Source of the DNA: Branchiostoma floridae
Taxonomy: Eukaryota; Chordata; Leptocardii; Amphioxiformes; Branchiostomatidae
Length of the DNA stretch: 64,000 bases
Reading direction: 5' to 3'
NCBI RefSeq assembly: GCF_000003815.2
Contig: NC_049988.1
Span: 246,000 to 309,999 of the forward strand
The notes beneath the pieces were generated by a model, which saw nothing but the letters and a program-made list of their open reading frames with translations, searched no databases and was not told the DNA's origin. Positions 4,880 to 28,940 of this stretch are shown in pieces (within the stretch, counting starts at the first letter, position 1; each line of letters opens with the position of its first letter). The position numbers were made by a program, and so were the translations under genes.

Positions 4880-5394
4880 TTAGCAGTCAACATCTGTCAT
4901 TGGAGTGGCACACCTGGATGAGTCTGACTGAGCAGAGTCCGGTCTAACATCATGACCAGACTGACTGTTATTTGCCCTGTTCTGACGCCTTTTGCGGAAT
5001 TTTTCAATCTCTTCACGTAGATCGTCAACTGGCTGAAGGTCTAGCGTATGAGCTTTCAGGTTTGGTGTGCAGCCATTTCTTTCATACCAAGCAGTTATGG
5101 CTGCCCTGTCATAGATACAACCATCGTTTGCACGCACTGGGTCTTTCATTACACTGTTGCTTATCGGGCAGATATATTTACTGGGGATAATTTCATTGGA
5201 CCTAGTATATTCGTAGGTCCCCTCGCCCCGGAAAGCTGACAGAATAGCATGTGCTTTAGCAAGAGGTACGCCGATGTTTATCAGGTCTACCTCTTTACGT
5301 GACTGAAGGTGTTCATACGTGAAATGATTTTCTGCCATGATGTTGATGTAGTCATCGAAGCCGTTTATCTTCAGGAAGTTCCGAAGTTGGTCAT
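4880..5394 (-). CDS. Gene 2 terminal exon: SAM domain plus U-box
   Basis: Acceptor CTTTCAG at 5395, stop TAA at 4882-4880, 171 codons. The first part is a SAM domain: [36 protein letters not shown]. The second is a U-box: [34 protein letters not shown], ending LREEIEKF, with the E2-contact Ile of CPI present and the PN of the usual L-x-PN loop replaced by PV. A basic, Ser-rich tail of about 38 residues follows. An in-frame ATG at 5338 gives a free-standing 152-residue frame, but this would start inside the SAM domain, so the spliced receptor model is better. SAM followed by U-box is known from the cytosolic protein WDSUB1. Confidence 0.9.
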
Positions 5395-8300
5395 CTGAAA
5401 GCGAGAAATACAGCGGTAAACCAATAGGTGAACAAATCAGAACGATATAGCATAAAAGAATTGCAGATATGATAACATCAGGAGGAATAAGTTGTCAGTC
5501 TACAGTGACCATCCGTTGCGTAGTAACAAAGTCTCCCTTACTTTAAACACATTGCTTCCATAATACACAAATAAGCTAGAAACTATAAAATGGATTCATA
5601 TTTGAGTGACTGTTGGACTTTTAAGGGAAACAATTCTTTGACAAAAAAGTTCCAGATCAAAAACTTACCAACTAACATCGTGTAGTTATTTTCGTTCCCA
5701 GCCGTTGCCATACCAACGGTGTTCTTCACCAGTGACGCCTGGCTGCTGCTGTCCACTGAGAATAGATCTTTGGATGACGCGTATGCAGGAATGGCGTATG
5801 CTCCGTCAGGTTCAAACTGTCGGTATTAAAAAAACAGAACATATTTGCGAAGTTACTGTAGCACGGGCGTAACACACCAGTTTTGTACAATGGTACAATA
5901 TGTACAACCTACATACGATCGGGCTGTTGATACCGGGGGTTTGATACAATCACATTAGGAAAGATCCATATTCATTTCGATAAGTGTGATGGGTATTCAA
6001 ACATACTGGAGGTGTAGCGATTATCAAAATCGGACCCCCTGCTGTGCGTCCCATTTGAGGGGACGTCTTTAATGGATTTTTTTACTGAGATTCGTATGAG
6101 TCAAGCGGAGGAAAAGACGTAAAGTGCTTTCTGAAAGGGCACAACATTAGGGCCTGATAGTCATCTGAACCCAGAAACTTTCGATTCTTAGTCAACAACC
6201 CTAACTACAGGAACACATTGTCACTCTTACATTTACTTTTAGTTTTTGCATCGATTCTTACAAAATCTATTTGTTATTGCTTTTGAGTTTTTTTCATAAT
6301 AGAAACTAATTCTTCTAAAATTACCTTTTCTGCTTGAGGAACAGACCGTCCTGCATCAATTAAGGACTCATAATTATCTGGAAAAGAAAACACAAAAAGA
6401 CACCTATAGTGACTGTTTGAAACATGACTATCACATGGAGACAATATTGCTTCAGGACCAAGCTATTTGGGATAATATACATATCAGTAACTCTTCAAAT
6501 CTTTACATTTTTGCAAGAACAATGATATATTGTTTGTTAGTCTATTTGCCTTTTAAAAATTGTTGCTGTTTAGCTTACTTGTAGTCATCCCCCTTAAGTC
6601 TTCGTAGGTTCTGAGGTTCCCATCTCCAAGTTCTGGTCGAGCTGGCTGACGTTCAAGCTGGTGGCTGTTATTCTGGTTGTTGTTGCGATATCTGTACAAG
6701 ATATATGGTGAAAATTTGCTTTTTTCTTATGATTTCATAATTTCTACTATTTTGCTTCGATGATGGCATACACGCGCGCATCACTTTTGTCTATTTCCTG
6801 AATAATGTATTTGACCATACTTTACATAGTTCAAGCAAATGTAAAATAAGCAAATATTTGCTATAGATTTTGGCACACGGTACATTATTCGGCATTTACT
6901 CTGTGTTTACTCATTTGTTAAATCTTCCTAAAATATTAGATATTTTCGGTCAATACTTGATTTAGCCCACCTTTCTTTCTTTATCTTCTTACGTCTCCAG
7001 TAGACAATGACGACGGCCAGACCGATGCCTACCAGCACTACTGCCACGCTGGACACAGCGATGATTGTGACTGATGTGGACGACATCCCATCTCGGTCAC
7101 CTGATAGTTAATAGCAATCAGATAGATAAACAAATAAAATTGCATTGTTTTCAAAATCAAGTTTCTCCTACTTATAAATTTAGGTAATGACAATGTAAAG
7201 TAAATCACACATGTAAGCTTGCCATGTGAGATAAGATAAACGTACCTTCTGTGTGGAGAGTACAATATGTGGCGAAAGACACATCGTCGACAGCTATGTC
7301 ACCCTGGTCTCCATTCCCAACCACGGCTTCTAGAAGAACCTACACAAGGAATAAGTTTATGACTAGGTTAATCATAGGCAGGATAGCTTAAAATGACAAA
7401 GACCTTTTGATGTAACGGTAGTTAGAAACGGAAAAAAATGAACATGTTAAGCATTCAGATCTTTAAATTATATCGAGAAGTTATGATATTTTGCAAGATA
7501 TACATAGGACTCGTATTTTGATTTATATGATCAAAACATTTAACCATCATAATTTTCCTTCAAATTACACTTAGCCACCAGTAATTCAAATATGAGATTT
7601 GTGAGTGAACTCCCTGTTTGCAAAGATCCCTAAAGGTGCGCTCCCACTGCACTTGCGTCAAGCTTGCGTCACTGCGGGCTTCGTTCACTGCGTCAATGTT
7701 TTGGCATTTTCTCTCCGATTTTTTTATAATTTAGATATTGCGTAATACGTAAAATTATGACTTAGAAGACGACAAAATACACAAAAAGACAGAAAATTCG
7801 TTCTTTATCTCTGAAATTCGTTGAGTATCCTTTGAACCCCGCAGTGACACAAGCTTGACACAAGTGCAGTGGGAGCGCACCTTTAGTCATTTTTAGCTAC
7901 CTGATAGTTCCTGTTCTTAGTGCCAATGCTGACCGAACCAAAGAGCCAGCCCCTCCCCTGTTGGCCCTGTCGTCTCCACACTTCTTCCGTTGATCCATTT
8001 TTCACATCCCTTACCAGAACATGCAGACTGCCGATGTTACGGCCTTGCATGTGGTAGAAGAATCGAAACTGGACGGGGATTAGATAAAAGTCATAGATAT
8101 AATACGCGGAAGCTAACCTCGTTATTAAAGGAGTAAAAATCAAGCTTGGTCAATCCCAAGTCTTCGGTTGTTTCTTCTAAGTGTGTTCTCAAAGGTAAAG
8201 ATAATTGTCAAACACTCGTACCTGACAAAAGGTGTCATCCGTAAAGACAGGACTGACGAGCTGGGCTTTCTCTCCTTCACGGCTGCCTGACGAGTCGATG

Positions 8301-11300
8301 AATATGTAGAAGCCTGTGGGGAAAATGGAGGTGTTGAATATCGAAGATATTGTTTAATGTTAGTTTCCTTGAAATATTCAACATTAAGAAATATAAGCTT
8401 TCTTTCGATGATTGAACATTGAAAGTACATTTCAACATAGAAAGTTCATATATTTTTAATGACAAAAATACTGTACGCAAATCATATTATCTTTAAAGAT
8501 CACATCAATACAGTTGGTACTAGTACCTATTGGGTTTTGATGAGTGTGGTCCACCGTTGGCCCAGTGCCACTAGTACTTGTTGATTCTCTGCCCCGTTGG
8601 AATTCTATGTCACCTGAACCAGCTGACCAAGAACACCAGTTTTCTTCGAAATTACATCGTCCTGGTCCTGTACATTTAATGTAAATACGTAAACAAATAA
8701 ACTTGTTTTACACATTGTGGTGATCATAAATCCATGCCTTCATATGTCAATGTATAGCTGAATTAAATACCTTTATTGCAGTCTGATTCGTCGCTTCCAT
8801 CCACGCAGTTATCTTGATAGTCACACACATAGTCCAATGAAATGCATTCACCACTGCCGCATTTAAAGGTGGCCGATGTCGCTGTACAACCGTCATTATC
8901 TGTAAAAGAAAAGAGGCACCACGGAGGTTAAGTTCGATAATGGGCCCACGGCGGCTTCCTAAGGTACTGCAGCAAAACTTCAATCTCGTGTTCTGAACAT
9001 GCTGTGGTCTTGCTTTTTTAAGTGGTAGATAGCCCTTGGGGCATAGAGTAATTGCTGTGAGTTTGGACCCCCTAGCGGCTTATTTTGGAAACTGCAGGCA
9101 CAGATTTCCTTTTAATCTTTGGACGAGAATAACTCGAGAATGTGTTGACAGATTGTCATGATTTTCGGTATGTGATGACTAACATAATGTAATATTAATA
9201 ATACCAATCAACAGCTAATTTGCATAATTAATGAGGAAAGTTTATAGATCCACTGCAGTGCACGATAGGACTTTCAAACTTGTCACAAATGTAACTGACA
9301 AAGAGAGAAATGTGAATAGACACTTGGCCAAAGCCCCCTTTCATCATTTACTACTCGGCCAGGCAGGAGTCTGGTAGAGACGACATGATTTTGACAAATT
9401 ACTTTGAAAGTTGCGCTGGAAAGTATCACAACATTGTACATAGTTTCATTGGCACCTTCGCCAAGAAGGTTATGTTTTTGGCAGCGTTTGTGGGTTTGTG
9501 GGGGACACACGTTCATCCAGTCGTTTGCTATTGGGGTAGGTACTCTTTAGTAATACATGAATAAGACCTAAGTATCTTGAATAAAATTGTTTGGCGAAGG
9601 GATGTGTTCGTGGAACTCTAGTTACCTGTGATGGGAATAGTCTTGTATAAACACACACACATGGAAACAAAACAAATAAAGACTGACCAATAATACAGCC
9701 GGGCGTTAACGTTATGTCATCTATAGCTATCGACCCCTCAGACGGCGTCCCAATATACCCTTGGAAAGAGACCTAGAACCAAATGTTCGAGGTGTAAAGG
9801 GTTAATAAAAAATGAACACATCAATGGATTAAAGGCTGAAATATTGAATCTGCACCAAGCTTCAATGTTGGTATTAGGTTTTTTAAAACATTGTCTTAAA
9901 TCATATCAAACAGAAACAAAAGTTTTACTATCGACCTAATAATAATATGAATGAAACACATACCTGAAATGTTGTTCTTTCTGTGATTGGCACCTCTTGT
10001 TTGAGCCAGGTAGGACCTTGTGGAACACTTTGCTGCCATTCTAGCCTCGCTCCCGTCCTTGATGCGACACGAACAGACAGGCTTGCGTCGCCGATGTTCA
10101 TGTAGTAGTGAAACAACAGCTATCGGGAAGATAAAAATATATTGTCTTTGAGAAGCTACATTCAATAATTCATAATTATGACCTAACCATGAAATTAAAA
10201 AAAAGAATAACAGTTCGGAATAAGACTTGCAACAGCAATTTACCAAAATCTAAGAAGACTCCAACATTATGATAATTTCCCTTTCATGCGGCTTCTTCCT
10301 CCTCATCACCTCCTATAATAAAATTCTATCGTCTGCCAGTATCGTTTTACACATTGTTAGAAATAAGTCAGATAATGGACAGGAATAACCACAGGCACAC
10401 TTACTGAACAGTTGTTATTATTGGAAATGAAGTATGTAGGAAGCAGCAAGTAGGAAGTTGCTTCCTTTGCGCCAGTTAGGTACAGGAAATATCCATCTGT
10501 GAATTAAGATAAAATATCTTTGTATATAGAGCCCGACAAATTGTAAATAATGTTATAGCTCAATGGGGTTTAAGTATTCATATGATTTTTTTGCAACAAT
10601 ACTAACAAATTATCTCTACCTGTGCTACATTTAAAATGCTTGTGTTAAACGGGCAGTTAATCTCACTCTCTAATGGTAAGAAAAAAATCCAGACAAAAGA
10701 AAGCGATAATTTCTTACACTTGTCCTTAAAATGTAGTTATTTACAATTTCCTTTGGAATAACACTGACCTGTTTTACCCTCGTGGTCAACCAACGGAACC
10801 CCAGTTTCTGACCCACCAAGTCCCCGTGTCCAGTCGGCACTGTCACTTTTCAGTTGGATCCAGTTACACAAGCCATTCTGGAAGTTACATCTTCCAGGGT
10901 AGCTTCCTGTTTAGACAAATTATTGGGGTGATGTTAATGTTCAAAATTACAGCAATGTTAACACTAATACCACTTCCCGGGCCAAATTAGGACCAACGTC
11001 ACATATCTAGCCGGGGCCCGGCACATATGCACCGGGCATGCTGTTAACTTTTTTGTGTTATTTTTGTGTTTTTGTTGTCTTTCATATAGTACCTTTCATT
11101 CCTCAAAAATGCCCGGACGGGCCTCTTCGTGGAAAAGTGATGATAGCTTAAAATGTCTATGATGTTGAATGTTGATAATCTGAATAGAAAGAAAAAGGAT
11201 CGCTTACCACAATCACTTTCATCACTTCGATCCCCGCAGTCGTCTGTGAAGTCACACTGGGTAGTTTGAGGCAGACAGACAGCGTTGTCACATACAAACT

Positions 11301-14300
11301 GGTCTGGTCTGCATTGGTGCCACTGACCTACATGTAGATATGAAAAATATTGCATAAATGATTGCACAATTTACGAGTGATAATAGTCATACTTGACAAA
11401 TATGACATTGATAATAGTCATACTTGACAAATATGACATACTTGACAAATATGACTAGTGTTAAAAAATCATCTGGAAACAGACTCACTTAACAGGATTC
11501 CATGAAAATATAAGCGAATTAATGCTGTATTTAATACACAGCGAATGTGTCGAAGAAAAGTGTCATTTTGGCATAATTAATGGAAAAAAATTACCTAGAC
11601 TGAAAAAATGAATCTTAAATCGCATATTACATATTACAAATTTATTCATTTATTTATTTATTTCATCTTGAAAACAAATGGGTAGCCCCTACAACAGTGC
11701 ATAGTTGATTTCCAAGGGGGCCCACCAAACATACAGTAAACTAGAAAGGCCGACATTTGCTTAAGAGCAAATACAGCATATTTCAGCCATACCCCTTTCC
11801 ACGCAACATTGGACTGTTCCAAATCACCCCTGCGCAAAAATGGAACATCCTCTTAACAGTACATTATCCCCCAAAGTGGACTGGTATTGTGAATTGATTC
11901 CAGGTAAAAACAGAGCTTGCTTCTATTTTTCAGAAAATGACAATAATCACACCTTCCATTCAGAAAATTTTCATCATGACTGAAAATTGTTGAATGACTT
12001 CATGTAATGTCATTAACAATTTTCAGTACGATAACTAGGTGTAAGTTTAAAAAAGTATAAGCTCCTTGTGATGTGGGTACATTTATTATTGCAGTGAACT
12101 TTTTTTATTCAAGTAGGGCATACGATTTAATAATTATCAAGCAGGTGCAGGTACTGTAGGAGCGTTTGTTTTCTTCAAGCTGTAAAACTGTTAAACTGTT
12201 TTACTTTGTATGCAATCAGCCATCGAGCCAGACCCGGAAGATACGATTGAACCTTGTTCGAGGATTTATTTTCGTCTGTCTGGTCAGTCTGTTCATACCC
12301 TGGCGCTGAGAGTGTTTTATTGGGCTGAAACTCTGGCAGTTTAAAGTTACTTACAATTTAAATGTTCAAAGTTTATGTCAAACAACAACAGCACTAGGAA
12401 ATGTGGCCACTATAGACAGGTGGTCACTATAGAGAAAATGCTGATCTATTGACTAGGAGCCATACGTTACACATGATTTCAGTACACTGATCATTAATCA
12501 TATAAACATTGCACAGGTAAGCCAATTGTTTAGATGTACAATTAACTTCAAATAATTCTGAAGAGAAATATGGATGAGAAAATAATCATTCTCGCCACTG
12601 TCTAACTTATAATTACGTATCAAAACTAAACGCAGATTTTCTAACTAGCGCACCTTTCGCCGACTTCATCAAAGGACCGCCGGCTATCAATCAAACACGG
12701 CTGTTGATTAGACTTAGAGTTTCAAACAGTCATGTGCTGTGTGCCAGTTGACAGCGAACTTCATGCTACGTGATGTTTTACATTGCTTGGACCTTCTTTC
12801 CTACAGCGGTGCTTCTACAAAATATTTAGACTGTAACACTGAGTCCCACATGTTTTATAGAATAAAATTTGACGCAGAACAGCATTTTTTGCTGGGTATT
12901 TTTCTTGAAACATGTCCGTGGGAATATCAGCGAGGCGGCGACGTAGGGATATCAGACCGTCAACAAAAGTCGCACGGCGGCTAACGGCGCAGCGAAGATA
13001 CTAGCGCTATAAATAAGCGCTTCAACTAAGGATGGCAACCCGTACAATATTTTTGTATACTGTTGAGCTAAGTAAAGTTTGTTGTTTATGAGGTTTTAGT
13101 TGTCTTTGAAGCTTTGACCCGAAATATTTCAAACTGCTGAAGAGAAGTAAGTGACTGCTACGATTATCGTAGATATGGCCCTAAAAAAAACTGATAAAAG
13201 AAGCCTTCTCAATAGTCTAAAATGCAAGAGCTTCCGGGGGGGCTTCGCCCACCTGGGTCCCCCCCACAGTGGCCCTGTCCCTGGACCCCGCCAGGGACAT
13301 TCGGCGGCCCCCGGACCCCTGTCCGACGCTTTGAAAAAATCCTGGCGAGAAGTCTGTACGGCCTGAGTCTTCAAGTTAACGTATTGTGTGGTCCCGCTTA
13401 TGAATATTAATTAGCCTTCGCTTTCCTCTTCACTGATTGGCTGAACCATTAATTGAATTAACTCTTCCTGCCGGCTAGACGCAGGTGCAGATGTCGGCTC
13501 TGTGGGGTGAACGTCCGAAAGGTCATGGCATGGAGAACGAAAGAAAACCAATTTCCCCCAAAAAAGTGCTGTAATTAAGCCTTTTACAGTACTTTATGCC
13601 AAAAATTTCACTTGGATCATTTTACCAACTATCTTATGCCTATCTATACCAAATGTTACTCATACCAGGGTACAGGGGTGCAAAATATACCGTTATAAGA
13701 CCGTCAACAACAGTCGCACGGAGCTAACAGCGCAGCGAAAATACCATCGCTAGCGTTTCAACTTCGGATAACAAGTTATAAGTACTGTTGAACTCAGTAA
13801 CGTTAAAGTTTGTTTTTAGTTGCCTTTGACGGTTTGACCTGAAATAGTGTTACGGTAAACTCCTGAAGAGAAGTTAAGTGACTGCTGCGATTATCATAGA
13901 TATGCCCCTAAGAACTGATACAATATAAAGCCTTCTGAATAGTCTAAAATGCGAGAGCCTTAGGCGGGCTTCGCTCCCCCTGGCGGGAACACTGCTATAT
14001 GCGGGATCATGAGGCCCCGCTTATGAATATTAATTAGCCTTTGGCCTCCTCTTCGCTGATTGGCTAGGTCTTTGATTCAATTAACTCTCCGGCTGACGCG
14101 CACAGGTGTGGCTCTGTGCGGGGTCACGGAAGGTCACGTCAGGAGGCCAAAAGAAAACAAATTTCCCCTCAGAAAAGTGCCAAAATTAATCATTTTAAAG
14201 TTGTTTATGTCAAAAATTTTACTTGAATCTTGTTACCAAGTATCTAATGCCTATCTATACCAAATTTTAGGTCATTTAATTGTAATACCAGGGTACAGGT

Positions 14301-17300
14301 GCCAAAAGTGTCCTTTTTTGGTCAAAAATTGGCCAAAAATCGCAAAAATAAGCATTTTGTTGCACTGTACACCAAAAGTGTTATTGAATTTATATGAAGG
14401 GATTATCAAGGCACATCTGTGTCAAATTTCAGCTCATTCGGTTGCAATACCAAGGTACAGGAGCCAAAAGTGCCCTTTTTGGGTCAAAAATTGGTCAAAA
14501 AATCGCAAAAATAAGCATTTTGTTGTACTGTACACCAAAAGTGTTATTGAATTTATATGGGGGCATTATCAGGGCACATCTCTGTCAAATTTCAGCTCAT
14601 TTGGTTGTAATACCAGGGTGCAGGGGCCAAAAGTGTCCTTTTTTGGTCAAAAATTGGTCAAAAAATCGCAAAAATAAGCATTTTGTTGTACTGTACACCA
14701 AAAGTGTTATCGAATTTATATGGGGGCATTATCAAGGCACATCTCTGTCAAATTTCAGCTCATTTGGTTGTAATACCAGGGTACAGGGGCCAAAATATAC
14801 AGTTTTGGTCTAAAATTGACCAAAAAATCTCAATAAAATCATTTTAGAGGCAGATATGAAAAAACTGAGAAAAAAAGCATCAAGGTATTGGCCCATTCTA
14901 CCCCTGTGCCAAATTTCAGGTCATTCGGTCCAGGAACGGCGGAGATGAATCACTTTGAAGATTTGACAGGAGAAGAAGAAGAAGAAGAAACATTACGAAT
15001 ACAATATATTTCACCATACTATGTATGGCTGAAATATAATAACAGATACAGGAAAAAACGTGGTAACAATCAGTCAAACTTTGAACACTCAGGGACAACA
15101 TACAGTACAGAAAACATAAAACCGGTGCGTCAAAACATAATCAGTGTCCATACTCAAGTCGAAAACGTTCCAAGGTCAAAATCAATATGTCAAGAGATTG
15201 GGTGGAGGTCAGAGGTCAAATCATATATCAAATCATGTGTAAAACAAAAATTAATGAAGGATGTAGCGGTGAGAAGCAGAACTCCAGTTACGAGGGCGGT
15301 TCAAAAAGTAATGCCACTGGTTTTATAAAAGGTTCATGCTTTCATCGAATTAGTTGAAATTTGGCACAAAGCTACAAGAATATATCCTCTTGAGATTGAC
15401 ATATCTCAATTTGTTGTTAAGACTTTTATGAGTGACTGAGTTGAGTTCAATATGACCACACCCTTGTTATCCCGTCGGAAGAAATTAGAGGGTCAATTAA
15501 CGTGTAATTGATAATGTCTCTAAATCCCTTGTAGCTATTGTAAGAAACTAAAATTCCACATGTATCAAGTTGCATTTGTCTATAAGCAACATGCCTATTT
15601 TCATCTTTTAAATACAATCAATTATTTTTTTTTCGTTCCTGGTGTGAAGTAAGGTCGTCAAGGTAGTAATTAGCGGTGGATTAGAGGTGGGCTGCTTAAA
15701 GTTTCCCTAACCGACTTTTTTATTTACTGAGAAAAATCAAACTTAACACACTTCTTGATGTTTAAACAATTAATAAGTGTGCTAAGTTTCGCATCTTTTG
15801 GCTAATGGAAAAGCAGTCTACAAAAACATTATTCAACAAATCACGTATTTGGCTACTAATCAAACTTCCTGTAATATATCAACTCGCTTCATTCTAGTGG
15901 TTGTAAAAGATGAACCATTGAGAGTTTAAACATGAAATTTGACATGTAATCTATAGAGACATTTGTTATTATACAGGTGAAATTTCAACTTCCTACAGTA
16001 GTTTTAAAATAGTGAGATCTAGAGGAACTGATCTCATGACAAGCTTTTAACCCTCAAACACCCGAGTGGGGTCCGTTTGGACCCCAGGCGTATATTTTGC
16101 AGTGCCATTTGAACATTTTTAAACTGAAGAAAAATTCCTTCCGTGACTTTGTCAGCCAACATCTTTTATACTTTCTCCTAAGTTTTTGTGCAGATTGGCA
16201 CAATACTGTGGAAGCTACAAAGATAGTCCGTGATCAGTCCGTCTGGGGTCCAAACGGACCCCAGCAAAAAAGTGTAGCTTTTGAAACAAACTTTTGAGTC
16301 TAACTCCCGAAGTATTTATCGTATCACCACCAAACTTTTAGAGCATAATAAACATGTAAAACTAAATCCTCATAGAAACTTATGTGTCATCACCATATAA
16401 TATGACGACATTATGACGTCTCTAAGCTAATAAGGGCGGCCATCTTGGATTTTGACTAATGACGTCATGAAATCAGCATAAATTATAAATTTTGAATTAT
16501 GAAAATAGCATTAAATTTCATAGAATTTTATTGTTGTAAGAAAACAAGCATTGTTTACCAAGAAAACCTTGTTTAAGTCGAAATTGGCAAATTTTGGCAA
16601 AAATATGCTTGTCATAATTCCGTTGCCATGGCAACCCCAAATAATGATAAATTTGCTTTATTGACAACAAAATTTTGTTAACAATATTTTGTGATATATA
16701 ACCAAGTTTCGTAGCTTTAGAACTAGCCGTTCATGAGTTATGTGACATAAAGATTGCTGAGGGCCTTAAAATTCCCCTCTCTGGTCAGAATATGTTTAGT
16801 GCAAAAGATGGTCCTTCTGTTTTTTTGCATAAATTATGATAATGAGGTGGAATTAGCAACAACTTAACATGTCCGAATATTCCTCTTACATTGACGAAGC
16901 AATGTATGTACAATGATCACCGATAGGAATTGGAACTGAGATTTTATGAACAAAACATTTTGGGGTCCGTTTGGACCCCACTCGGTCATTTTAGTCGCAA
17001 AAAAAGGTCGGGTGCTTGAGGGTTAAGGGTGTAGTCATCTTAAAATCATCTCAGTTGCTTATAAAAGTCTGAACCACAAATTGAGATTTCTCAATCTCAA
17101 GAGGATATAGTTTTGTACATTCGTGCCAAATTTCAACTCATTCGATGAAAACATGAGCCTGTTATAAAACCAGTGGCATTACTTTTTGAACCGCCCTCGT
17201 AGAAGCTCTGACGAAGGTGTCTGAGAGACATCGAAACGTAAGCTATGTAAGTACCCACTGGTTGTTTATACAAAGAATTTCTCCCTTATCCTATATTCTA

Positions 17301-20300: not shown

Positions 20301-23300
20301 CTACTTTAAGGTAAAACTAGCTTGTACAGCACTAAGAAAAACACTTACATTGCACGGCCGAACCACAGACGGTACAATGACAGGACCGATAATTTTGGCT
20401 GTATCCAATGGCTGCTGACCGGTGTCACTACCAACATACAGGAAATGTCCTCCATCTGGAAAATAAAGCCAATAATGACAAGTTATTTTTTTCAATCGTG
20501 AGCGGGTTATGTACTGTCTGTACAAAAGTACAGCGATATCACGAGTCAAGTGTTTTTATACATCCCAGTTATTTTGTTTGTCTTTTACTTAACTTTACAC
20601 GTCTATGAAGGTTAGAGATTGGTGTTATAATATTTGCAAAGCAACAGTCATTGACAGGATAAGATCCTTTTAATGGTTTCAGATAGTAATCGTTACTTTT
20701 TGTCAGTGTTTCAATAACTTACTTTGCGTTAATTAGTCTTTCTTACAACCACATCCGACTCTTATTTTTTGCTATAGAAATGCGTTATCAAAAAATGTAT
20801 AATCACAAAAAATTGTGTGAATACGGATAAAAATGGGACAATATTAAAAAATATTCTGAAATTTAATAATGTATATATGATTGCAATAAAATGTAAAAAT
20901 TCTGATAATAATTTGTTACTGAAGTTTTTCCACCTGTAGGAAGATGATTGTCTCCTTCTCCAGCTGTTTGTTTCACCCAGTCAAACTCGTCATCTGTCTG
21001 TTGGTGCCACTCACAAGTTCCTATAGCCTCAAAGTCACAGGGCACTGGGTGCCGGGTTTCTGTAAAAAGTGAATGCCGGATGCTTTATTTGTAAATAACA
21101 ATTTGGTAAATTATTACCTAATCCAATAAGGCACTGCTGAAGCCCCTTGTGCATGTCTGCGTTTTTGTCTTTGTGAACAACAAATCTCAACAACTTGTGA
21201 ATGTAATATCATTAAGCATATTCCCATAGCCTTTTAGTGCCGTTTAGGGGTGGTGGATTCTTATTCACTGTCTAGGACACAATAATTGAAGGCGAAGCCC
21301 ATCCCCTCCTTCAACCGCCTCCTTCAACACTTCCCACTGAAGTCGGTTACTCCTTGTCTACACCTGTTTGGAGCCAGGGGATTATTGAAAAGTGCCTTTG
21401 CAAGGGGCACAATACCGATAGCATGTCAGGATGTGAACTCTGGAGGGACCTCTGGATTCCGAGATCCAAATATCCAGCAGCTACGCCACATGAACCCACA
21501 ATATTTTAGTGGTAAATGGCTTATTATTCTCTCCAAGCAGAGATTCAAGATGAAAACTGTGCCCTTTTCCTCATATGCCGTCTTTTAGCTATCCCCCACC
21601 AACCTGAAAGGAAAAGATTGTTTTTAAGGAAAACATCATAATTTTCCCCATCAACCTCTTTTTAAAAAGAAGCTTCCGTAGCAAGCTGCCGTTTTAGTGT
21701 TCTTAGCATGACAGACATTCCTTGACTTCTAAATTGCGGCGGACTATTAAGTCCGAATATCTATGTGTAAAGTGGCCTTTGTTACTGATTAACGTTAAAA
21801 CTCATTCGGGCTCAGTGTATAGTATCCGCGCAAGCTATTGCAAATAGATGTAAGTTTGTTGCACTTAGATTTCGTGTCATGATGAAAATTCAGATCTGTA
21901 CTAAAACAATATGTATATCAAAATACCACTTTGTAATTGACAACTCGTCTTTCTACATGTCAAAATTGGAATTTTGTCGAAGAAACTCTGATGTATGGTT
22001 GGTTTTGCAAATTCGTTACTTGACTCTTGACATTTCAAGATAGTTTCTGTAAAACCCAATCTTCAATCTTGCACTTTCGAAAGGAAATTAACATGCGTTT
22101 TTGCCGTTCTTAAAGTAGACTAATATGGATCAAGGACGGAAGGTTGCTAGGGTACTCCTTATCAACAAGGAAGGTTGCTATGCATGTCACCTGACGTCAT
22201 GTTTGTACTTGTAGCCATGCCGTAAAATTTCTGTCAAGTAGGTTGAAGGAAGGTTGCTAGCATAGCTCTCATCAACAAGGAAGGTTGCTATGCATGTCAT
22301 CTAACGTCATGTTTGTACTTGTAGGCATGCCGTAAAATGCCGTCAAGGAGGTTAGCTAGAGACAGGACTGTTACAGTTAGCACGAGAGCGCCGTCACCTC
22401 GGTGATTGTATGGCCCCCTTTCTACCAGACGGGGATCGCGATTAGCTCTGACTGAGACTAATAGGATATGTGTAACCTTCGATTTAATACTGGATATATC
22501 GTAAAGCTTGTAAAAGTGTGACTAAAAGGAAAACAAAACAAAGTGTAAAAAAATCTTTTCTTTTCTGTACAATTTCTTACAAAATTTTAGGTTGCAGAGA
22601 GAGCGCGGCGAGAGCGCCGTCCAAATAAAAAGTGGTATATAGAACCCTGTCATACCATCGCCGTTAGAGCGCCGAGAATGCACATTTTACACGTATAACG
22701 TGACATGATAAAGAAGTTTATGTTGAACTAGCTACACGACAGATTTAAGAAATAAAGCAGCAAGACAGACGTGAATATTTCAGTGTGAGTGACTGTACAG
22801 TGACCAAAATTGGATTTGTTTAGAGCCTTGATTGTATACTTTAAATGTTATCTAAGACTTAGTAGGATCACTAGGATGACTTCAAAGATACCAAAATACA
22901 CCATACGTCAACACATTCGTTCTTTATCTCTGAAATTCGTTGAGTAATCTTTCGAACCTTTGCTAGCTCATAAAAAGATGCTGATATTTGAGTTTTTCGT
23001 CGCGGTGAGAGCGCGCTGGAGTCGCAGTAGAGATTCCACTAGAGCAGTTTTTCTGGAGTTGCGGCGCTCTCACCGCGCTCTGGCCAATTTTCCATCGCAG
23101 CGAGAGCGCCGTGAGAGCGCCGTGAGAGCGCCGTCAAGTGGAAAGGGGGCCTTAGGTCTCATCCCAATAGGACGGCGATCTCATCGCACTTTCGCTGCGC
23201 TCTCAACTGTAGGTCATTGGACTGCATAGGTCATTTGATTAATTTTGTTGTCCAATTATACTTTTTTGCCATGATCATTTCATACTTGATACGAAAAGAC

Positions 23301-26300
23301 CTAATATGAAGACGGAAGCCGACGATTTCTAATTTGCAACACCTAACGGATGCTGACGTATGCTAAAAAATGCTGACGGATCCCGAAAACAATCACGGAT
23401 CCCAAAAAATGACGAATCCCACTTACATTCGCAACGCATTCGTAGGTATACGTATCTCGCGGTGGATACAAAAACAGAACCCGTATACTTACGTACTTCG
23501 TGACGGATGCTAACACTGTATCCGTATGGATACTTCCGAAAGGTGGGTTTACACCTGCGTATATTTTCAAGTGCGCGTGAGTTCCGAATGAAATTTTGTC
23601 AATACGCGGCCGAACGCCCAACATTTGGATTTTTTTTTGGAATAAATTAAATTGTACGTCGAGCCCATCTGGCGTTTGAATTACGACTTCAGCGTTTTCA
23701 TTTCGCATGAGATGCGTATGATTGCAACTGAAATGCGCAACAGAATTTTCAGTACTGCGAATAGATTCGTATGGGGTACGTATGTTGGGCGTAATCCGGA
23801 CGCACACAACGTCTACCGACCGCATGCCTGACGCACCTGGTGCTAACTGCATTACAAACGCATTTCAGGTGTGTCAGAGGAACAGTTTCTGTTACATATA
23901 CTTTTGTTTGCGAGCATTGCCAATAGAGTATTTTTGTTAGAGGAACACTTTGTACTACGTATGCTTTTGTTTACAGGCAGTGCAAGTAGAACATTGACAA
24001 GTAAACAGTGAAGAGGTTTTTTTATTCATTTGCGAAGCAGTGAAGCAGTGACACTGTGCTTTTACAGTAATGAGGGCCATCATTTACCTTAAGAAATTAT
24101 GTGCACTGTTAAGATTGTGTTTGTTTTCACTTTGTCCTTAATGATTTTCCCTATCATCTTAGTATTTCAACTACTATAAAAATCACACTCATACACACCA
24201 CAAAACGTATTCAAGATCTTTATCAAACACGTAAATTAAACAATTATGAAACCTTACGCCCTCTTTCAAAGTTGTAATATGGCTCTATATTGCACCTTTA
24301 TATCATGTGGTTTTACACACAAAAAAGGGCCATTATCAGCAAATTACGTCAAATATCAGTTACACAAAATGGCATGTGTGTCACACAAGTTGACCCAGTG
24401 CTTGAGCAGGTTCCTCTACATCTTCCCGTCCCTGGAGGCTCTGTTGGGACCAGTTACATTCATGGTGTCCTGCAAGTTGTGACCATCTCTCCATGCCCCC
24501 GGTACAAATTCGTCGGTCCTGGCCTGGATCTGACATGAGATGATTTTTTTTGTCTGGACTCAGATGCACCTTCGTATTTATTCCAAATCTGGAGTGTGCG
24601 TCGATCACGCTATCAGTGCGCGTAGTATGCGCAAAGAGATCGCAGAACGCACGGTACTAAATCGTGATCTATGTGTGCATTCGTTATGCGGTCGCTCATG
24701 GTGCGTTGTGTCTGCGCTGTAAGAACGCTATGTACTCGCAATACCGCGATATCCGCGTATTACTGCGTATAAAGCGCAAACATGTAGCGTCTTCATAGCG
24801 CAATCGACCGACGTGGGACCGCTGTATTGCGCATCCATAACGTTTTGGCCACCAAACTGCATACGAACGATAGTTTTGTGCATGTCCAAAACTATCGGGT
24901 GTACTATGCGTATATTTTCGTTTGCCTGCGTTCGTGAAACTTTCTAAAAACGATTCAGATGCGTTTGAGGTACGACTTGTGCGTGCGGCCGCGTATTGAA
25001 GAAATCAGTCAAAATGTCGAAAAATGTCAAAACGGAACTCATGCGGCATGAAAATATACGCAGGTGTAAACCCACCTGAAATCACAGATCTTATACACAT
25101 ACGTAACGCATTCGTTCTTTAGTCACTAACAGATTCAAACATTGCATTCATATGGATACTTACTTTTAACATAAACGAAAAAATACGTAGTCAAGATTCT
25201 TGTTTATCAGCGGTTGTTAACGGAATCCAAAGATTACCCAAATCACGGATCCCATACACATCCGTAACGCATTCGTTGGTATTCGTAACTCGTGGTGGAT
25301 GCAAACACGGAATACGTATGCCTACGTACTTCTTGGCGGATGCTAACACAACATCCGTAAGGATACTCACTTTTTACGTATGCGAGGCTAGCACTCTTGT
25401 TATGAGCAAAATATCAATTTGTAGAGTGGTCATATCTTTCACTCGTTTTGTACCTCGGATACCACAGTTTCTAACGTCTATACAAGTGAGACAATCCACG
25501 TTACGCTCGATACCGGGATACTCGGATTCGTAAGGATGCGCAATGTGTTTTATGCATTCGTTCATAAAAAGATGACCAACAATGCACTGATGCAAAAAGA
25601 TACAGAGTCGCATATCCAAGACAGAGCTGGGTATATACAAGACGTAAAAGTGTGAATGAGAGGACAACAAAACACACAAGGTATAAAGAAACTCCTTTTA
25701 TTTTCTATACAATTCGTTGAGCTATCTGTCAAATTTAAGGTCGCAGAGAGAGAGAAAGAGAGCGCAGCGAGAGCGCCGGTCTAGTGGAAAAGTAGTATAA
25801 CTATCTAACATTTTAATGTTTCAACTACATTGTACAAGCGCTTGTGTATCAAAAACGGCTGATGAGGTGTTTTTCAATGTTATCTTGATTAAATTCACAA
25901 CCTCAGCAATGTTCTCAATTTCGATTTGATTTTTTAACATTATTTTTTGCAGTTCAAAAAGAAGACTAATTTCGTGATCATACCAATATCTCGGGTATAT
26001 ATAATGTGATGTAGTAAAATGTATCAAGTAAGAGCGTTAAAATTACTTCTTGTACATTCTGTTGTTTTGCTGACCATTCTCGGTTGGCTGTTAAACGCGC
26101 AAGCAGAAGTCGTAAAATGCTAAGCAGAAATTACGGTTGTGTTAATAAAAAAAAATAAATTGAATTCTCTTTTGGATATTTAGATACAACAAGCATTTTG
26201 CCTTCATCGCACTTCCTATCATTTTTCCCATCTAATATTATTGGCACCTGACACTTCATCATAACTTTCGAAAGATGGTGAACTACGGTATAACATTTTT

Positions 26301-28245
26301 GCACTAAAGGAGTATGTACTTACCCAAACAAATGTCGTTGTATTGGTCATACACCTCTCCTTCTGGACATATTGGGAGTGTTCCTGTAGACAAGATGATT
26401 CAAGATGAAAACAATAAGAAAGCATTCCACACTGGGACCTTACCTGCAATTTTGAGGGGTTAATTACCCCCATAATTGACTACGTGTACATAAATGTACA
26501 AGGAGCCTATATCGGTCTACATTGTCTAGCATTGGCATGAACGAAGAAGCATAATTTTTGTCCAAGCATAATTTTGGTCCAATGTTATAATACTTTTCTA
26601 TACTTGCTTTCACAAAAGCATTGTGAAACGAAGCAAAAGTACCAATATTATCATGACAATGCTACATAATCAAATCGATGATATTTGCAGCTTTCTTCCT
26701 GCAAATTTCAACTGTCATAATAGCCCCATCAGTGTTTTAATTGTGTGCATATGCAAACAAAGCAATTACTCAAGCAACTGGATATGGTTTTTGAAACGGC
26801 CAGACGTTTCAAAATCATTTCCAGTTGCTTGAGTAATTGCTTTTTGTCATATCTTATTACCTGGATGTCTAACCTTCATCGACGTTAATTGTGTGCATAT
26901 TTTGCAATTTAAAGTGCCTTCCTTACAGCTGAATCAAATGAATAGTGACTACAATACGGCTGTCACCCAATGTTCGAGACACAAAACCAGAGACACAATA
27001 TGTTAGCCTTGCTCTCTATATCTGTTTAGGTGAAGTGGACTAATGTTTATCTGTAAACGTAATTCAGTTCCTTACCTGTGGTCGCTACATTTTTATGTTT
27101 TGAACAATACTAAATGCGTTGCTTAGGTTCCAGTTTTGAAAATATGTTAGTGATTATGGAGCAATAAATTCACAAAAAAAAATTCATGCAGTTCTAGCCA
27201 AAGTACAATGTAAATGGTATAGCCAAACAGACGTACCTGCACAGTAGGCCTGAGAACAGCTAGTCGATGGCACCAACTCGTACACGTAGAAAACCCCTTG
27301 TGTATCCACACACCGTTTGACCTGGATGTTCCACGGGAAAGGACAACAATTCCCCGGCACACCGTAGTTAGGACAAACCGTTCTGTTGACTACAGTACTG
27401 TCTGTCGGTAGTGTTCCGTTCATCCATATAGGAACCTGGGTTCCACAGTGGTACGGCTCCACACATGTTGTAGGGATCTCACCGCCGACATAACTTATGA
27501 ACCGGTACCAGTCTTTTGATAGGGTGTTGTCACACAGGAGAGAGTGTCCGGCCTGTACCTCGGCTGCTGAACTCCGCCTGACTTGGTTTAGCTCGCGGTA
27601 GTCAGTACAGGGGTCAGTACTATATGCCCCGCACATCAAACCTAGAACAAGTAGATAAAAATACCCTAATGTCATTTCACCGTAATACAGCAACAGGGTT
27701 AAATATATATTTTTCGACGTATTTTTTTGTCTTTTTATTGTGTCTATACATCAGGGTTCGTTTTTTTAGGTCTACAATTTTCCCTTTAGTAGTACTGGAA
27801 ACAATATATATTACATTTGCGAAATGCCTATTTTTATCTCAAAACTTTTATACAAGGTTAAGTCTTATATAAAGCAAAGTTTTCTTAATCAATTTTCCTT
27901 GATAGCCAGTTGTGTACAACGGTAGTAGCAAATTGAATATTATTTGTTGTATTTGGTAATAATGGTAATTTGCATGATTGTCGCGTTATTATGATACACT
28001 CATGGCGTTTATATAACCACGAATAGCCTCTTGTGATATACTGTGTTGCAGGACGATTACAGTTTCTTCTATAAAAACAATACGCCGTACGGACTGTACT
28101 GTACTTTACTACAATGAATGAGATACAGATCAAACAAGTCGACTTTCACCCTTTCACTTAAACAACTGTAACATGAAATGAACTCACCGATTATAGCAAT
28201 AAGACTAGTAAGTAGAGTCGACGTCCACGTTGTATGGTGCTTCAT
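4880..28245 (-). CDS. Gene 2: single-pass receptor with D8C/MAM/SRCR/LDLa ectodomain and ITAM-like, SAM and U-box tail
   Basis: Seen: 24 coding exons with consensus splice sites and fully compatible phases, summing to 3504 nt (1167 residues plus stop). Order by residue: signal peptide 1-20, D8C 20-154, Cys exon 155-174, MAM 175-336, SRCR 337-443, LDLa 444-483, MAM 484-640, LDLa 641-683, MAM 684-848, transmembrane about 859-883 followed by WRRKKIKK, YxxL pair 921-935, SAM about 998-1051, U-box about 1066-1129. Known: these ectodomain modules bind ligands or glycans; U-boxes recruit E2 enzymes and act as E3 ligases; SAM mediates oligomerisation. Inferred: a plasma-membrane receptor that ubiquitinates on ligand binding, possibly in epithelial or immune recognition. 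No other signal exon lies upstream of the first MAM on this strand, which supports one gene. Main uncertainty: the 5.3 kb and 6.2 kb introns could hide extra exons. Confidence 0.8.
5669..5816 (-). CDS. Gene 2 exon 23: cytoplasmic linker
   Basis: A 148-nt exon (phase 0-1, donor GTAAGT) of about 49 residues, rich in Ser, Ala and Asn, probably disordered. It carries [11 protein letters not shown] and ends NNYTMLV, so further tyrosines (YTML at about 992) could be phosphorylation or sorting sites. It joins in frame to the SAM/U-box exon. Confidence 0.8.
6325..6691 (-). CDS. Gene 2 exons 21-22: juxtamembrane tail with ITAM-spaced tyrosines
   Basis: Exons 6579-6691 (phase 2-1) and 6325-6377 (phase 1-0). 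The spliced frame gives [17 protein letters not shown]: YxxL, seven residues, YxxL (residues 921-935). This fits the ITAM consensus YxxL/I-x6-12-YxxL/I, and acidic residues follow each Tyr. Known: doubly phosphorylated ITAMs recruit tandem SH2 kinases of the Syk/ZAP70 family. The motif is split by an intron, so it is seen only after splicing. Each YxxL could instead be an endocytic sorting signal. Confidence 0.8.
6971..7100 (-). CDS. Gene 2 exon 20: transmembrane helix and stop-transfer
   Basis: A 130-nt exon, phase 1-2, encoding a short polar stalk ([10 protein letters not shown]), about 25 apolar residues starting [19 protein letters not shown], then [11 protein letters not shown] hydrophobic span followed at once by a basic cluster is a classic type I anchor, so everything after it should be cytoplasmic. 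The donor is GTGGGC after AAAGAAAG. Confidence 0.9.
7246..8667 (-). CDS. Gene 2 exons 16-19: MAM domain 3
   Basis: Exons 8527-8667, 8222-8313, 7901-8068 and 7246-7339 (phases 1-1, 1-0, 0-0, 0-1), 165 residues. Landmarks are [41 protein letters not shown] and [14 protein letters not shown]. This is the last extracellular domain before the membrane. The last intron contains a 256-bp inverted-repeat element at 7631-7886. Confidence 0.9.
7631..7886. mobile_element. MITE-like element in the MAM 3 intron
   Basis: Left end TAAAGGTGCGCTCCCACTGC, right end its inverse GTGGGAGCGCACCTTTA; arms extend inward with CTTGCGTCAAGCTTG. About 256 bp, no coding capacity, inside the last MAM 3 intron. Confidence 0.75.
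8771..8899 (-). CDS. Gene 2 exon 15: LDL receptor class A domain 2
   Basis: A 129-nt phase 1-1 exon with acceptor TTTACAG and donor GTATTT. It encodes [27 protein letters not shown]: six cysteines and the conserved acidic calcium site. A dispersed repeat begins only a few tens of bases upstream of the acceptor. Confidence 0.92.
8918..9622 (+). repeat. R1 dispersed repeat, two abutting partial copies
   Basis: 8918-9440 has the GTTAAGTTCGATAATGGGCC and GACGAGAATAACTCGAGAA blocks. At about 9446 a second short copy opens with CCTTCGCCAAGAAGGTTATG and ends at 9622 with TTGGCGAAGGGATGTGTTCG and GGAACTCTAG. It lies in the intron between LDLa 2 and MAM 2. Confidence 0.7.
9688..10906 (-). CDS. Gene 2 exons 11-14: MAM domain 2
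   Basis: Exons 10769-10906, 10405-10496, 9964-10119 and 9688-9772 (phases 1-1, 1-0, 0-0, 0-1), 157 residues. Landmarks are [38 protein letters not shown] and [14 protein letters not shown]. The four-exon structure and phases match MAM 1 and MAM 3, which suggests the domains arose by duplication of the whole exon set. Confidence 0.9.
11208..11327 (-). CDS. Gene 2 exon 10: LDL receptor class A domain 1
   Basis: A single 120-nt phase 1-1 exon with donor GTAAGC. It encodes a complete LDLa module with six cysteines and the calcium-binding end [12 protein letters not shown]. Known: LDLa repeats are calcium-dependent ligand-binding modules. It follows the SRCR after a 6.2 kb repeat-filled intron. 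Confidence 0.92.
11376..11455. repeat. Short tandem repeat
   Basis: A unit of about 30 bp containing GATAATAGTCATACTTGACA occurs twice, followed by a third partial TACTTGACAAATATGAC. It lies just upstream of the first LDLa exon, in the intron. Confidence 0.85.
12951..14310. repeat. Tandem duplication of a 600-740 bp unit
   Basis: Copy 1 starts near 12951 (AGACCGTCAACAAAAGTCGC) and copy 2 near 13695 (AGACCGTCAACAACAGTCGC). Both pass through GAAGAGAAGT, AGTGACTGC and TAGTCTAAAATGC and end around TAATGCCTATCTATACCAAA-type sequence before a CCAGGGTACAGG. The copies are diverged with small indels. They lie in the SRCR-LDLa intron. Confidence 0.75.
14280..14830. repeat. 163-bp tandem repeat array, about 3.5 copies
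   Basis: The string ACCAAAAGTGTTAT recurs at 14371, 14534 and 14697, an exact 163-bp period. The unit also contains TCAAATTTCAGCTCATT and TACCAGGGTACAGG. The open frame of 205 codons across it is repeat-encoded ([12 protein letters not shown] per unit) and not a gene. Confidence 0.9.
15291..17199. mobile_element. Mariner-like non-autonomous element with TA target site
   Basis: Left end CGAGGGCGGTTCAAAAAGTA at 15291, inverse right end ending CCGCCCTCG at 17199, each flanked by TA. The inverted arms extend past 100 bp (ATGCCACTGGTTTTATAA, CTCAAGAGGATAT). No transposase frame. It is interrupted by the element at 16051-17022. Confidence 0.82.
16051..17022. mobile_element. piggyBac-like non-autonomous element nested in the mariner-like element
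   Basis: Flanked by TTAA at 16047-16050 and 17023-17026. Ends are CCCTCAAACACCCGAGTGGG and the inverse CTTGAGGG, with subterminal palindromes GGGGTCCGTTTGGACCCC at both ends and one internal copy. TTAA target sites and CCCT ends are typical of piggyBac. No transposase frame seen. Confidence 0.85.
17484..19207 (-). CDS. Gene 2 exons 8-9: SRCR domain
   Basis: Two exons: 19039-19207 (phase 1-2) and 17484-17635 (phase 2-1). The first reads [28 protein letters not shown] and [10 protein letters not shown]; the second [27 protein letters not shown] and HARDVSVRC. This is the scavenger receptor cysteine-rich fold, with the usual split in mid-domain. I chose the GTTAGT donor at 17483 because it restores phase 1; the nearby GTAAGA would lose the last Cys and GTGGGT would break the frame. 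Known: SRCR domains bind bacterial and modified host ligands. The intron between the halves holds a 100-base gap. Confidence 0.87.
18106..18360. mobile_element. MITE with long inverted repeats around a gap
   Basis: GGCCCCCTCTCACTTGACGT with GCGGCACGCTTGCGGCATT on the left and the exact inverse on the right. It sits inside a larger low-complexity repeat (about 17850-18740) rich in GTTCCAACATG motifs. A related 1.2 kb copy is at 31640-32868. Confidence 0.8.
18186..18285. other. Assembly gap (100 N)
   Basis: Run of N inside an inverted-repeat element in the intron between the two SRCR exons of gene 2. Exactly 100 N suggests a gap of unknown size. Confidence 0.99.
19362..21059 (-). CDS. Gene 2 exons 4-7: MAM domain 1
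   Basis: Four exons: 20934-21059, 20349-20455, 19963-20127 and 19362-19449 (phases 1-1, 1-0, 0-0, 0-1). Together about 162 residues with the MAM plan: [11 protein letters not shown] at the start, [21 protein letters not shown] in the middle, and [14 protein letters not shown] at the end. All four canonical cysteines are present. The exon split is repeated in MAM 2 and MAM 3. Known: MAM domains act in adhesion and receptor self-association. An inverted-repeat element sits about 12 bp past the donor of the third exon. Confidence 0.9.
19711..19950. mobile_element. MITE with CCCCCTTTCCACTAG ends beside a gene 2 donor
   Basis: Ends CCCCCTTTCCACTAG and CTAGTGGAAAGGGGG with inner GCGCTCGCTC and GAGAGAGCGC arms. 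The right edge is about 12 bp past the donor of the third MAM 1 exon (19963). Confidence 0.8.
22136..22370. repeat. Dispersed repeat in tandem (about 115-bp unit)
   Basis: GGAAGGTTGCTAG, ATCAACAAGGAAGGTTGCTA and GTCATGTTTGTACTTGTAG occur twice in order. Related single copies lie at 30660-30790 and 40760-40900. Confidence 0.8.
22412..23160. mobile_element. MITE-type elements of the GAGAGCGCC family
   Basis: 22412-22622 resembles the 19.7 kb element. 22660-23160 ends GAGAGCGCCGTCAAGTGGAA and has an inverted relative at about 34050-34520 (shared CAAGACAGACGTG / CACGTTTGTCTTG and GGCCAATTTTCCATCGCAG). No coding capacity. Confidence 0.65.
23539..25077 (-). mobile_element. AAGGTGGGTTTACACCTGCG inverted-repeat element, copy 1
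   Basis: Left end AAAGGTGGGTTTACACCTGC, right end GCAGGTGTAAACCCACCT. About 1.5 kb, inverted relative to copies at 35082-37099 and 37421-39849. It is inserted in a second repeat (23343-23538 and 25078-25390) marked by CACGGATCCCATACACATCC. Internal frames contain no transposase motif. Confidence 0.85.
25643..25792. mobile_element. Partial MITE
   Basis: Right half of the CCCCCTTTCCACTAG family: GTGTGAATGAGAGGACAACA through GGTCTAGTGGAAA. The left end is missing. Confidence 0.6.
26324..26383 (-). CDS. Gene 2 exon 3: short Cys linker exon
   Basis: A 60-nt exon, phase 1-1, with acceptor TCTACAG and donor GTAAGT. It encodes about 20 residues with the pattern [14 protein letters not shown]. Exons of exactly 60 nt with the same C-P-x-G core follow the D8C exon in genes 1 and 3, which is the main evidence that it is coding. 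It probably forms a small disulphide loop after D8C. No named domain recognised. Confidence 0.78.
26762..26845. repeat. Inverted repeat with GAAACG loop arms
   Basis: AGCAATTACTCAAGCAACTG is mirrored by CAGTTGCTTGAGTAATTGCT, with inner GAAACG and CGTTTC. The following ACCTGGATGTCTAACCTTCA recurs inverted near 41505, so it belongs to a dispersed retroelement tail, possibly Penelope-like (inference). Confidence 0.6.
27237..27641 (-). CDS. Gene 2 exon 2: D8C domain
   Basis: A 405-nt exon (135 codons, phase 1-1) with acceptor TTGTTCTAG and donor GTACGT. It carries the eight-Cys D8C pattern known from uromodulin, GP2, OIT3 and VWDE: LLCDNTL, then [29 protein letters not shown] and the closing YCAG. 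Known: D8C modules are secreted and disulphide-bonded. The exon has the same length as the gene 1 copy; from WYRF to the end the proteins differ by one residue (S for T), while the N-terminal 40 residues differ much more. The hydrophobic stretch upstream in the open frame is the intron's pyrimidine tract, not a signal peptide. Confidence 0.9.
28188..28245 (-). CDS. Gene 2 exon 1: signal peptide
   Basis: ATG at 28245-28243 opens 19 codons plus one base, ending at a GTGAGT donor (phase 1). The peptide starts [19 protein letters not shown]: a short polar N-terminus, then a hydrophobic core. Joined to exon 2 it continues [11 protein letters not shown], a plausible cleavage region just before the D8C domain. 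The start faces gene 3's start 695 bp away on the other strand. Confidence 0.82.
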
Positions 28246-28940
28246 GTTGCCTTTGAGTAATGTAATACAGTGTAATACAGTGTCATGAGCAGAGAAACAC
28301 AAGGAAGTCTTCCTCGCCAAAAATTAGACGCAGCTAACCTGTTATCTGCGATACGCTGTTATCGCCACAGGTGCATGGAGTTTACTTAACAAATATTTGC
28401 CGTGTAATGCGGTGGCTGTTATAAAGATGATAAACCCTGCCCTGTTGTTGAAGGTCATAGCTTATTTGGCGTTGTGTCAGAGACATGGCATATTTATGTA
28501 ACGTAGGATTACGACACATAATAAACTATGACATATTGCTATGCACAATGAAGCTTGACTGAATTCATGTATAATAAATTAACACGTTGATAATAGTGTA
28601 CGCGACAGTAAAATTCAATAGCTAACAAATTAACACGTCGATAATAGTGTACGCAACAGTAAAATTCAATACCAAGGCGGCATTGTCGATTGATTATGTT
28701 TGCTCGATAAAATTGCATTAGAGCTGTTTACTTTCCCACCGGGGAGAAACGCGAAAACAACTTTGATGGACAGTTTGTTTGCACAATATTTGCTGACAGT
28801 TTTTCCTGTGCAAATTTCCTGATGGCTAGTTTACTGCCAAAAGTTAATGGACTTAGTCAGCTAAAAACTTTATCGCGTTGGAAACTGTAAACTTTCTTCA
28901 TTTCCTCACAGACTACCGCGGGTTGGAGAAGAGCGCAACC
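28246..28940. promoter_or_regulatory. Shared upstream region between divergent genes 2 and 3
   Basis: 695 bp separate the start codons of gene 2 (minus) and gene 3 (plus). Contents include GATA-type motifs (TTATCT near 28342, TTATCG near 28360, GATAA near 28430) and a tandem duplication at 28579-28670 in which AACACGTTGATAATAGTGTA is repeated as AACACGTCGATAATAGTGTA. Whether transcription starts inside is not shown; an acceptor-like CTCACAG at 28911 hints that gene 3's coding start may follow a 5' UTR intron. Confidence 0.45.

Follow-up and report, generated by a model that had tools for sequence, protein, structure and literature searches.

Transmembrane E3 ubiquitin ligases with a ligand-binding ectodomain have been described in the case of ZNRF3 and RNF43, which act on Wnt receptors (PMC3905715). 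WDSUB1, a U-box protein, has been reported to act through the scaffold WHRN to increase USH2A ubiquitination (PMC10238197). The part of a survey that we draw on describes the U-box ligases of animals as seven genes, old and conserved, plus a few lineage-specific additions, reports sequences with a SAM and a U-box but no detected WD40 domain, and makes no mention of lancelets (PMC3087547). A cnidarian survey lists SRCR, MAM and UBOX together among the domains of a group of predicted DMBT-like SRCR proteins (PMC5119243). Here we analyse a 64,000-nucleotide window of the genome of the lancelet Branchiostoma floridae (positions 246000–309999 of contig NC_049988.1, hereafter C10), in which a gene on the minus strand appears to combine such elements. 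We favour, with moderate confidence, the view that it encodes a single-pass D8C/MAM/SRCR/LDLa receptor with a cytoplasmic SAM and U-box and that this receptor acts as an E3 ubiquitin ligase anchored in the membrane, a view in which a single transcript, binding of a ubiquitin-conjugating enzyme (E2), ligase activity, a substrate and a ligand are all presumed. Coordinates without a contig label are window positions; C10, C9 and C13 are contigs of one 513-Mb genome, within which all genome searches were made.

The receptor gene runs from 28245 to 4880 and consists of 24 exons with consistent phases and one terminal stop, encoding 1167 residues. The model was built by chaining splice sites, with a phase check, over blocks conserved in a paralog; re-placing the acceptor of exon I and the donor of exon O to sites visible in this paralog gave the final 1167-residue version, whereas the Pfam scan was run on an earlier 1200-residue version with loose boundaries for these two exons. 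A first-pass annotation of the window had likewise read 24 exons into one 1167-residue frame, and our independent model gives the identical count and length and reproduces all of its boundaries at 6971, 6579/6691, 6325/6377, 5669/5816 and 5394. The features of the gene are listed below, with ratios of non-synonymous to synonymous substitution rates (Ka/Ks, window gene against paralog) that come, per exon and within exon Y, from a first run, made before the boundaries of exons I and O were refined.

28188–28245, minus, exon A: start codon and putative signal peptide, the latter from a hydrophobic run only; donor GT kept in the paralog
27237–27641, minus, exon B: D8C (uromodulin-like) domain; Pfam PF23283, 54.4 bits; Ka/Ks 0.27
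26324–26383, minus, exon C: short linker with Cys; splice model and paralog comparison
21059–20934, 20455–20349, 20127–19963 and 19449–19362, minus, exons E–H: MAM 1; Pfam MAM, splice sites kept in the paralog
19207–19039 and 17635–17484, minus, exons I–J: SRCR; Pfam PF00530, 80 bits; acceptor re-placed on the paralog
11208–11327, minus, exon K: LDLa 1; Pfam PF00057, one of two stretches
10906–10769, 10496–10405, 10119–9964 and 9772–9688, minus, exons L–O: MAM 2; Pfam MAM, exon O donor re-placed on the paralog
8771–8899, minus, exon P: LDLa 2; Pfam PF00057, best stretch
8667–8527, 8313–8222, 8068–7901 and 7339–7246, minus, exons Q–T: MAM 3; Pfam MAM, best stretch
6971–7100, minus, exon U: predicted transmembrane helix and 11-residue basic stop-transfer, entered in phase 1 and left in phase 2; hydropathy 2.82
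6691–6579 and 6377–6325, minus, exons V and W: juxtamembrane tail; YEDL-x7-YESL across the V/W junction
5669–5816, minus, exon X: tail; Ka/Ks 0.23, with an in-frame indel of 21 bases; the C10:1.31 Mb gene has a homolog
5222–5394, minus, first part of exon Y: SAM, end approximate; SAM_2 15.6 bits, below cut-off, a sister gene being above it; Ka/Ks 0.36
4982–5188, minus, middle of exon Y: U-box; Pfam PF04564; Ka/Ks 0.11
4880–4981, minus, end of exon Y: low-constraint tail, TDVDC and stop codon; Ka/Ks 0.60
4589–4594, minus: polyadenylation signal AATAAA

The predicted order of the protein is signal peptide, D8C, MAM, SRCR, LDLa, MAM, LDLa, MAM, one transmembrane helix, tail, SAM and U-box. Five Pfam families were found above their cut-offs in the model (E 0.001), namely MAM (three stretches), SRCR, Ldl_recept_a (two stretches), D8C_UMOD and U-box; WD40 is not among them, and no RING family rose above its cut-off in the Pfam scans, the Rtf2 RING-finger reaching at most 14.2 bits (cut-off 27.4). 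A simple hydropathy scale, our sole guide to topology, gave one strong peak (best 19-residue windows from 861–862, 2.82) followed by an 11-residue basic stretch, and a weaker N-terminal peak (windows from 7–10, about 1.6); on this scale a signal peptide, one transmembrane helix and a basic stop-transfer segment are predicted, as in a type I single-pass receptor. The SRCR and MAM modules detected by Pfam in the ectodomain place the protein with the scavenger-type receptors.

The U-box scores 41.6 bits in the 1200-residue model, 47 bits in the genome search and 46.4 bits in the exon, against a cut-off of 21.4. Alone, it matches the solved structures of LubX, UBE4B and plant U-boxes, and a profile that joins it to the U-boxes of the paralog, of a receptor at C9:20.99 Mb and of WDSUB1 also matches CHIP. 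The genome holds at least 13 U-box matches: among those listed, three lie in receptors (the window gene, its paralog and the C9 gene), six in a CHIP-like gene that is apparently present twice (one of the two was read), one in a WDSUB1-like gene with WD40 and SAM exons, and three in genes that by eye resemble UBE4, UBOX5 and PRP19. The three receptor U-boxes and that of WDSUB1 share 18 invariant columns out of 69. The window U-box is 40% identical to that of the C9 receptor, and the WDSUB1-like sequence is by identity the nearest of five non-receptor U-boxes to both, at 46% to the C9 one and only marginally to the window one (34%, CHIP 33%). In an unrooted tree of eight sequences, two of which are partial (UBE4- and PRP19-like) and one of which, CHIP, was joined from two exons, the three receptors and WDSUB1 are separated from the other four with a support of 93, and the window gene is paired with its paralog with 100 (other nodes: 68, 55 and 26). 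A WDSUB1 origin of the receptor U-boxes is therefore likely, and we put it no higher because the tree is unrooted, two of its sequences are partial and CHIP is a joined sequence. The lancelet WDSUB1-like locus, at C9:12.53 Mb, has WD40 in both exons tested, a SAM (SAM_1, 49.1 bits) and a U-box. The two CHIP-like loci, C13:3932893–3934856 and C13:4601982–4604268, are in opposite orientation, with three U-box matches each among those listed, and in the one that was read the first U-box exon seems to come in two alternative forms.

We take the domain ahead of the U-box to be a diverged SAM because a related SAM, in a last exon at C10:12.3 Mb, passes the SAM_2 cut-off (23.6 bits against 20.5) and aligns with it without gaps, at 34% identity. 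The last-exon SAM of another relative, at C10:1.31 Mb, scores 18.3 bits, below the cut-off; 13 of 59 columns are invariant in an alignment of four SAM sequences, and the best PDB chain found with a three-sequence profile is 3k1r (Usher 1G), a weak match (E 0.03). The first-pass annotation had placed a transmembrane helix with stop-transfer residues ahead of a SAM and a U-box: the helix and the U-box hold, and the SAM, which falls short of its Pfam cut-off by itself, is accepted through its sister homolog.

The paralog, at C10:3.64–3.65 Mb, is collinear with the window gene over its entire length. In the refined model, all 23 introns retain their GT and AG in the paralog; the aligned codons contain the terminal stop only, and the exon indels (3, 9, 12 and 21 bases) are all multiples of three. 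Repeated on this model, the regional Ka/Ks values (ectodomain 0.18, exons U–X 0.48, exon Y 0.25) go with an overall Ks of 0.26; within exon Y, the U-box is the most constrained part, as the values listed above indicate. A duplicated block keeps its neighbours, and the paralog thus speaks for coding and constraint more than for the joining of the receptor to the SAM and U-box.

For the joining, the receptor at C9:20.99 Mb seems to us the stronger evidence. It consists of MAM–SRCR–LDLa–MAM–LDLa–MAM and a transmembrane segment, the order of the window gene from its first MAM on, followed by a U-box exon, with Pfam scores of 138 bits (MAM), 96.5 bits (SRCR) and 66.9 bits (U-box); of six further ectodomain pieces, three pass their cut-offs (two LDLa, one MAM), two narrowly miss that for MAM and the last has no match. 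Its 3' end is formed by a stalk exon, then by transmembrane, tail and U-box exons with phases 1–2, 2–1 and 1–stop; in both genes the transmembrane exon has phases 1–2 and the last exon is entered in phase 1. No D8C was found near 21.0 Mb on C9 among the 81 D8C matches in the genome, the stretch beyond 21.005 Mb being unread, and the C9 gene has no intact SAM; a short stretch that aligns with the end of the SAM is perhaps a remnant of it. Altogether, the whole-gene paralog, the pattern of selection and the diverged C9 locus support the earlier claim that the receptor is joined to the SAM and U-box.

Five points weigh against a receptor that is itself a ligase: (i) the gene is known here from its DNA sequence alone; (ii) the window SAM scores 15.6 bits (SAM_2) and 14.2 bits (SAM_1), below the respective cut-offs of 20.5 and 23; (iii) exons U–X are weakly constrained, as their regional value indicates, and Ka/Ks is 1.32 for exon W and 0.94 for exon A, each on 17 codons; (iv) the U-boxes of the window gene and of its paralog display a two-residue gap, absent from the C9 U-box, just after a proline presumed, from its role in CHIP, to contact the E2; (v) two of the four C10 genes with D8C and SAM end without a U-box in the last exon. 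One of these two, at C10:1.31 Mb, has a D8C exon (76% identical to that of the window gene), MAM and SRCR exons, a degenerate second MAM, a transmembrane-like exon and a homolog of exon X, and ends like the window gene in a SAM exon but without the U-box; comparison with the window exons revealed no LDLa or third-MAM homolog. The other, at C10:12.3 Mb, pairs a D8C exon (59% identical) with a SAM last exon devoid of a U-box, the two being assigned to one gene from their strand and their spacing of about 7 kb, with the middle unread. Such a receptor can therefore do without a U-box. The gap and these two sister genes would fit a real receptor whose U-box is catalytically weak or dead and is kept as an adaptor for an E2, a chaperone or another ligase; this we judge unlikely, if a serious alternative, given that the U-box is so much more constrained (Ka/Ks 0.11) than the rest of exon Y (0.36 and 0.60) and that the receptor U-boxes and WDSUB1 retain their invariant columns.

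Less probable still is that the SAM/U-box exon serves mainly in an alternative or separate transcript, most receptor transcripts ending earlier. The splicing of the receptor tail is read from genomic DNA, which leaves room for this, and a polyadenylation signal follows exon Y, although one would be expected after any last exon. However, exon Y has no in-frame Met before its 20th residue, which lies inside the SAM, and none occurs in the open frame back into the intron (5494–5395), so that a gene of its own beginning here would lack a complete SAM; moreover, the phase-1 acceptor of exon Y is kept in the paralog, the joining phase is the same at the C9 locus, and the last exon of the sister genes carries a related SAM. 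The first-pass annotation had named a separate SAM/U-box gene as the finding that would overturn it; we reject this candidate, there being no start codon ahead of the SAM and the C9 locus joining a transmembrane receptor to a U-box. Note that a promoter scan of 5300–6400 relied on a bacterial model, unsuited to animal DNA, and is uninformative. Finally, a chimera due to chance adjacency or assembly error is hardly credible: the evidence comes from one genome, but two contigs between them hold three loci where a U-box exon follows a transmembrane receptor, and one of the three has diverged far from the others.

If the receptor is a ligase, it would plausibly couple recognition directly to ubiquitination. 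A ligand (microbial, glycan or cell-surface) bound by the SRCR, MAM and LDLa modules would cluster the receptor, and SAM contacts together with clustering would bring the U-boxes together. Many U-boxes act as dimers. Each U-box would recruit a charged E2 and ubiquitinate lysines of its own tail or co-clustered membrane proteins, leading to endocytosis and turnover or to a ubiquitin signalling platform. The tail might offer a further input, phosphotyrosine or adaptor, through a tandem YxxL motif that the first-pass annotation had missed: exons V and W (6325–6691, minus) encode YEDL-x7-YESL, which spans the splice junction and so depends on the joining of V to W. Receptors with an immunoreceptor tyrosine-based activation motif (ITAM) carry a tandem YxxL/I in the tail, which is phosphorylated by Src-family kinases. 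The paralog tail has YEDL-x7-YQSL; no tandem YxxL/I was seen by eye in the C9 tail or in the tail pieces of the C10:1.31 Mb gene. The pattern YxxL/I-x6–9-YxxL/I occurs in 0.77% of 20000 shuffled tails, in a test made after the motif had been noticed.

The relatives would fit a history in which an ancestor had both SAM and U-box, the U-box was lost in two C10 genes and most of the SAM was lost on C9; this is one order of events, and gains are possible. Tentatively, and with more doubt than conviction, we propose a small lancelet family of pattern-recognition receptors that are U-box ligases, in which ligand clustering, sensed by a tandem-tyrosine (ITAM-like) switch and by SAM packing, would activate ubiquitination at the membrane, all in a single chain, a WDSUB1-like SAM/U-box having been grafted onto an SRCR/MAM receptor and the U-box later lost in some copies. 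The interest of such a family is that it recurs and can be tested, since these naturally occurring genes, with SAM and U-box, with a U-box but no intact SAM, or with a SAM but no U-box, lend themselves to direct tests of what each part contributes. The last residues of the window protein, TDVDC, have counterparts in ADVEC, ANVDI, TNVHV and TNISV in its relatives, which is suggestive of one C-terminus shared by five last exons; by eye, TDVDC could be a PDZ ligand. In a shuffle test from which the C10:12.3 Mb tail was omitted, the counts were 36/5000 for the window against 1.31 Mb, 156/5000 for 1.31 Mb against C9 and 1795/5000 for the window against C9. Similar C-termini were rejected as proof of a common tail, since the shuffles support it only in part.

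Other features of the window concern neighbours and repeats. Immediately downstream of the receptor gene, and on its strand, is a second gene of the D8C/MAM/SRCR/LDLa kind (1093–1475, minus, on into C10:236001–246000). Its D8C exon is 91% identical to that of the receptor gene over 383 bases and its first SRCR exon 95% over 175 bases, a match confined roughly to the exon, with 57 of 57 residues identical, while the second SRCR exon reaches 82%, the LDLa 74% and the MAM exons give no DNA match, an unevenness that looks as if due to gene conversion. A further D8C exon, 50% identical, is found at 54798–55208 (plus; C10:300797–301207). An open reading frame at 28857–29021 (plus), with a signal-peptide-like Met-start, points away from the receptor, is conserved at the DNA level in the paralog region and is possibly a divergent neighbour gene. 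The receptor gene also has an intron insert, 11739–15042, with three pieces 94–98% identical to C10:3.627–3.633 Mb and a 163-base tandem array at 14261–14845; it looks younger than the exon divergence and is perhaps a mobile repeat.

How does the receptor compare with described proteins? The first-pass annotation knew of no described animal receptor with this architecture. In the open-licence PMC literature, where a failure to find does not establish absence from print, we found no transmembrane U-box and no U-box together with SRCR and MAM domains; for the pairing of U-box and SRCR, with or without amphioxus, a single paper came up, and for lancelets and U-boxes a single paper, on PARPs. UBOX has, on the other hand, already been named in cnidarian SRCR proteins (PMC5119243), and the lancelet receptors are thus not a new category. 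The cnidarian DMBT-like proteins differ in containing CUB, and the section concerned does not describe domain order, a membrane span, or MAM and UBOX in one protein (PMC5119243). WDSUB1 resembles the window gene in having a SAM directly before a U-box at the C-terminus (both in one exon in the window), but it carries a WD40 propeller, which was not found in the window model; the window gene is thus not WDSUB1. WDSUB1 is not known to have a membrane span, whereas the window module sits on a predicted transmembrane receptor; as WDSUB1 has been reported to act on a membrane protein through a scaffold, a membrane-tethered version would be a plausible short cut. ZNRF3 and RNF43 have a RING rather than a U-box, and a different ectodomain; a cytoplasmic RING of their type was not found in the window protein. 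Their plan, that of a transmembrane E3, would nevertheless be like that of the window receptor if its presumed activity is real, and a receptor-borne U-box family would then mean that a single polypeptide can unite extracellular sensing with the transfer of ubiquitin by way of a U-box.
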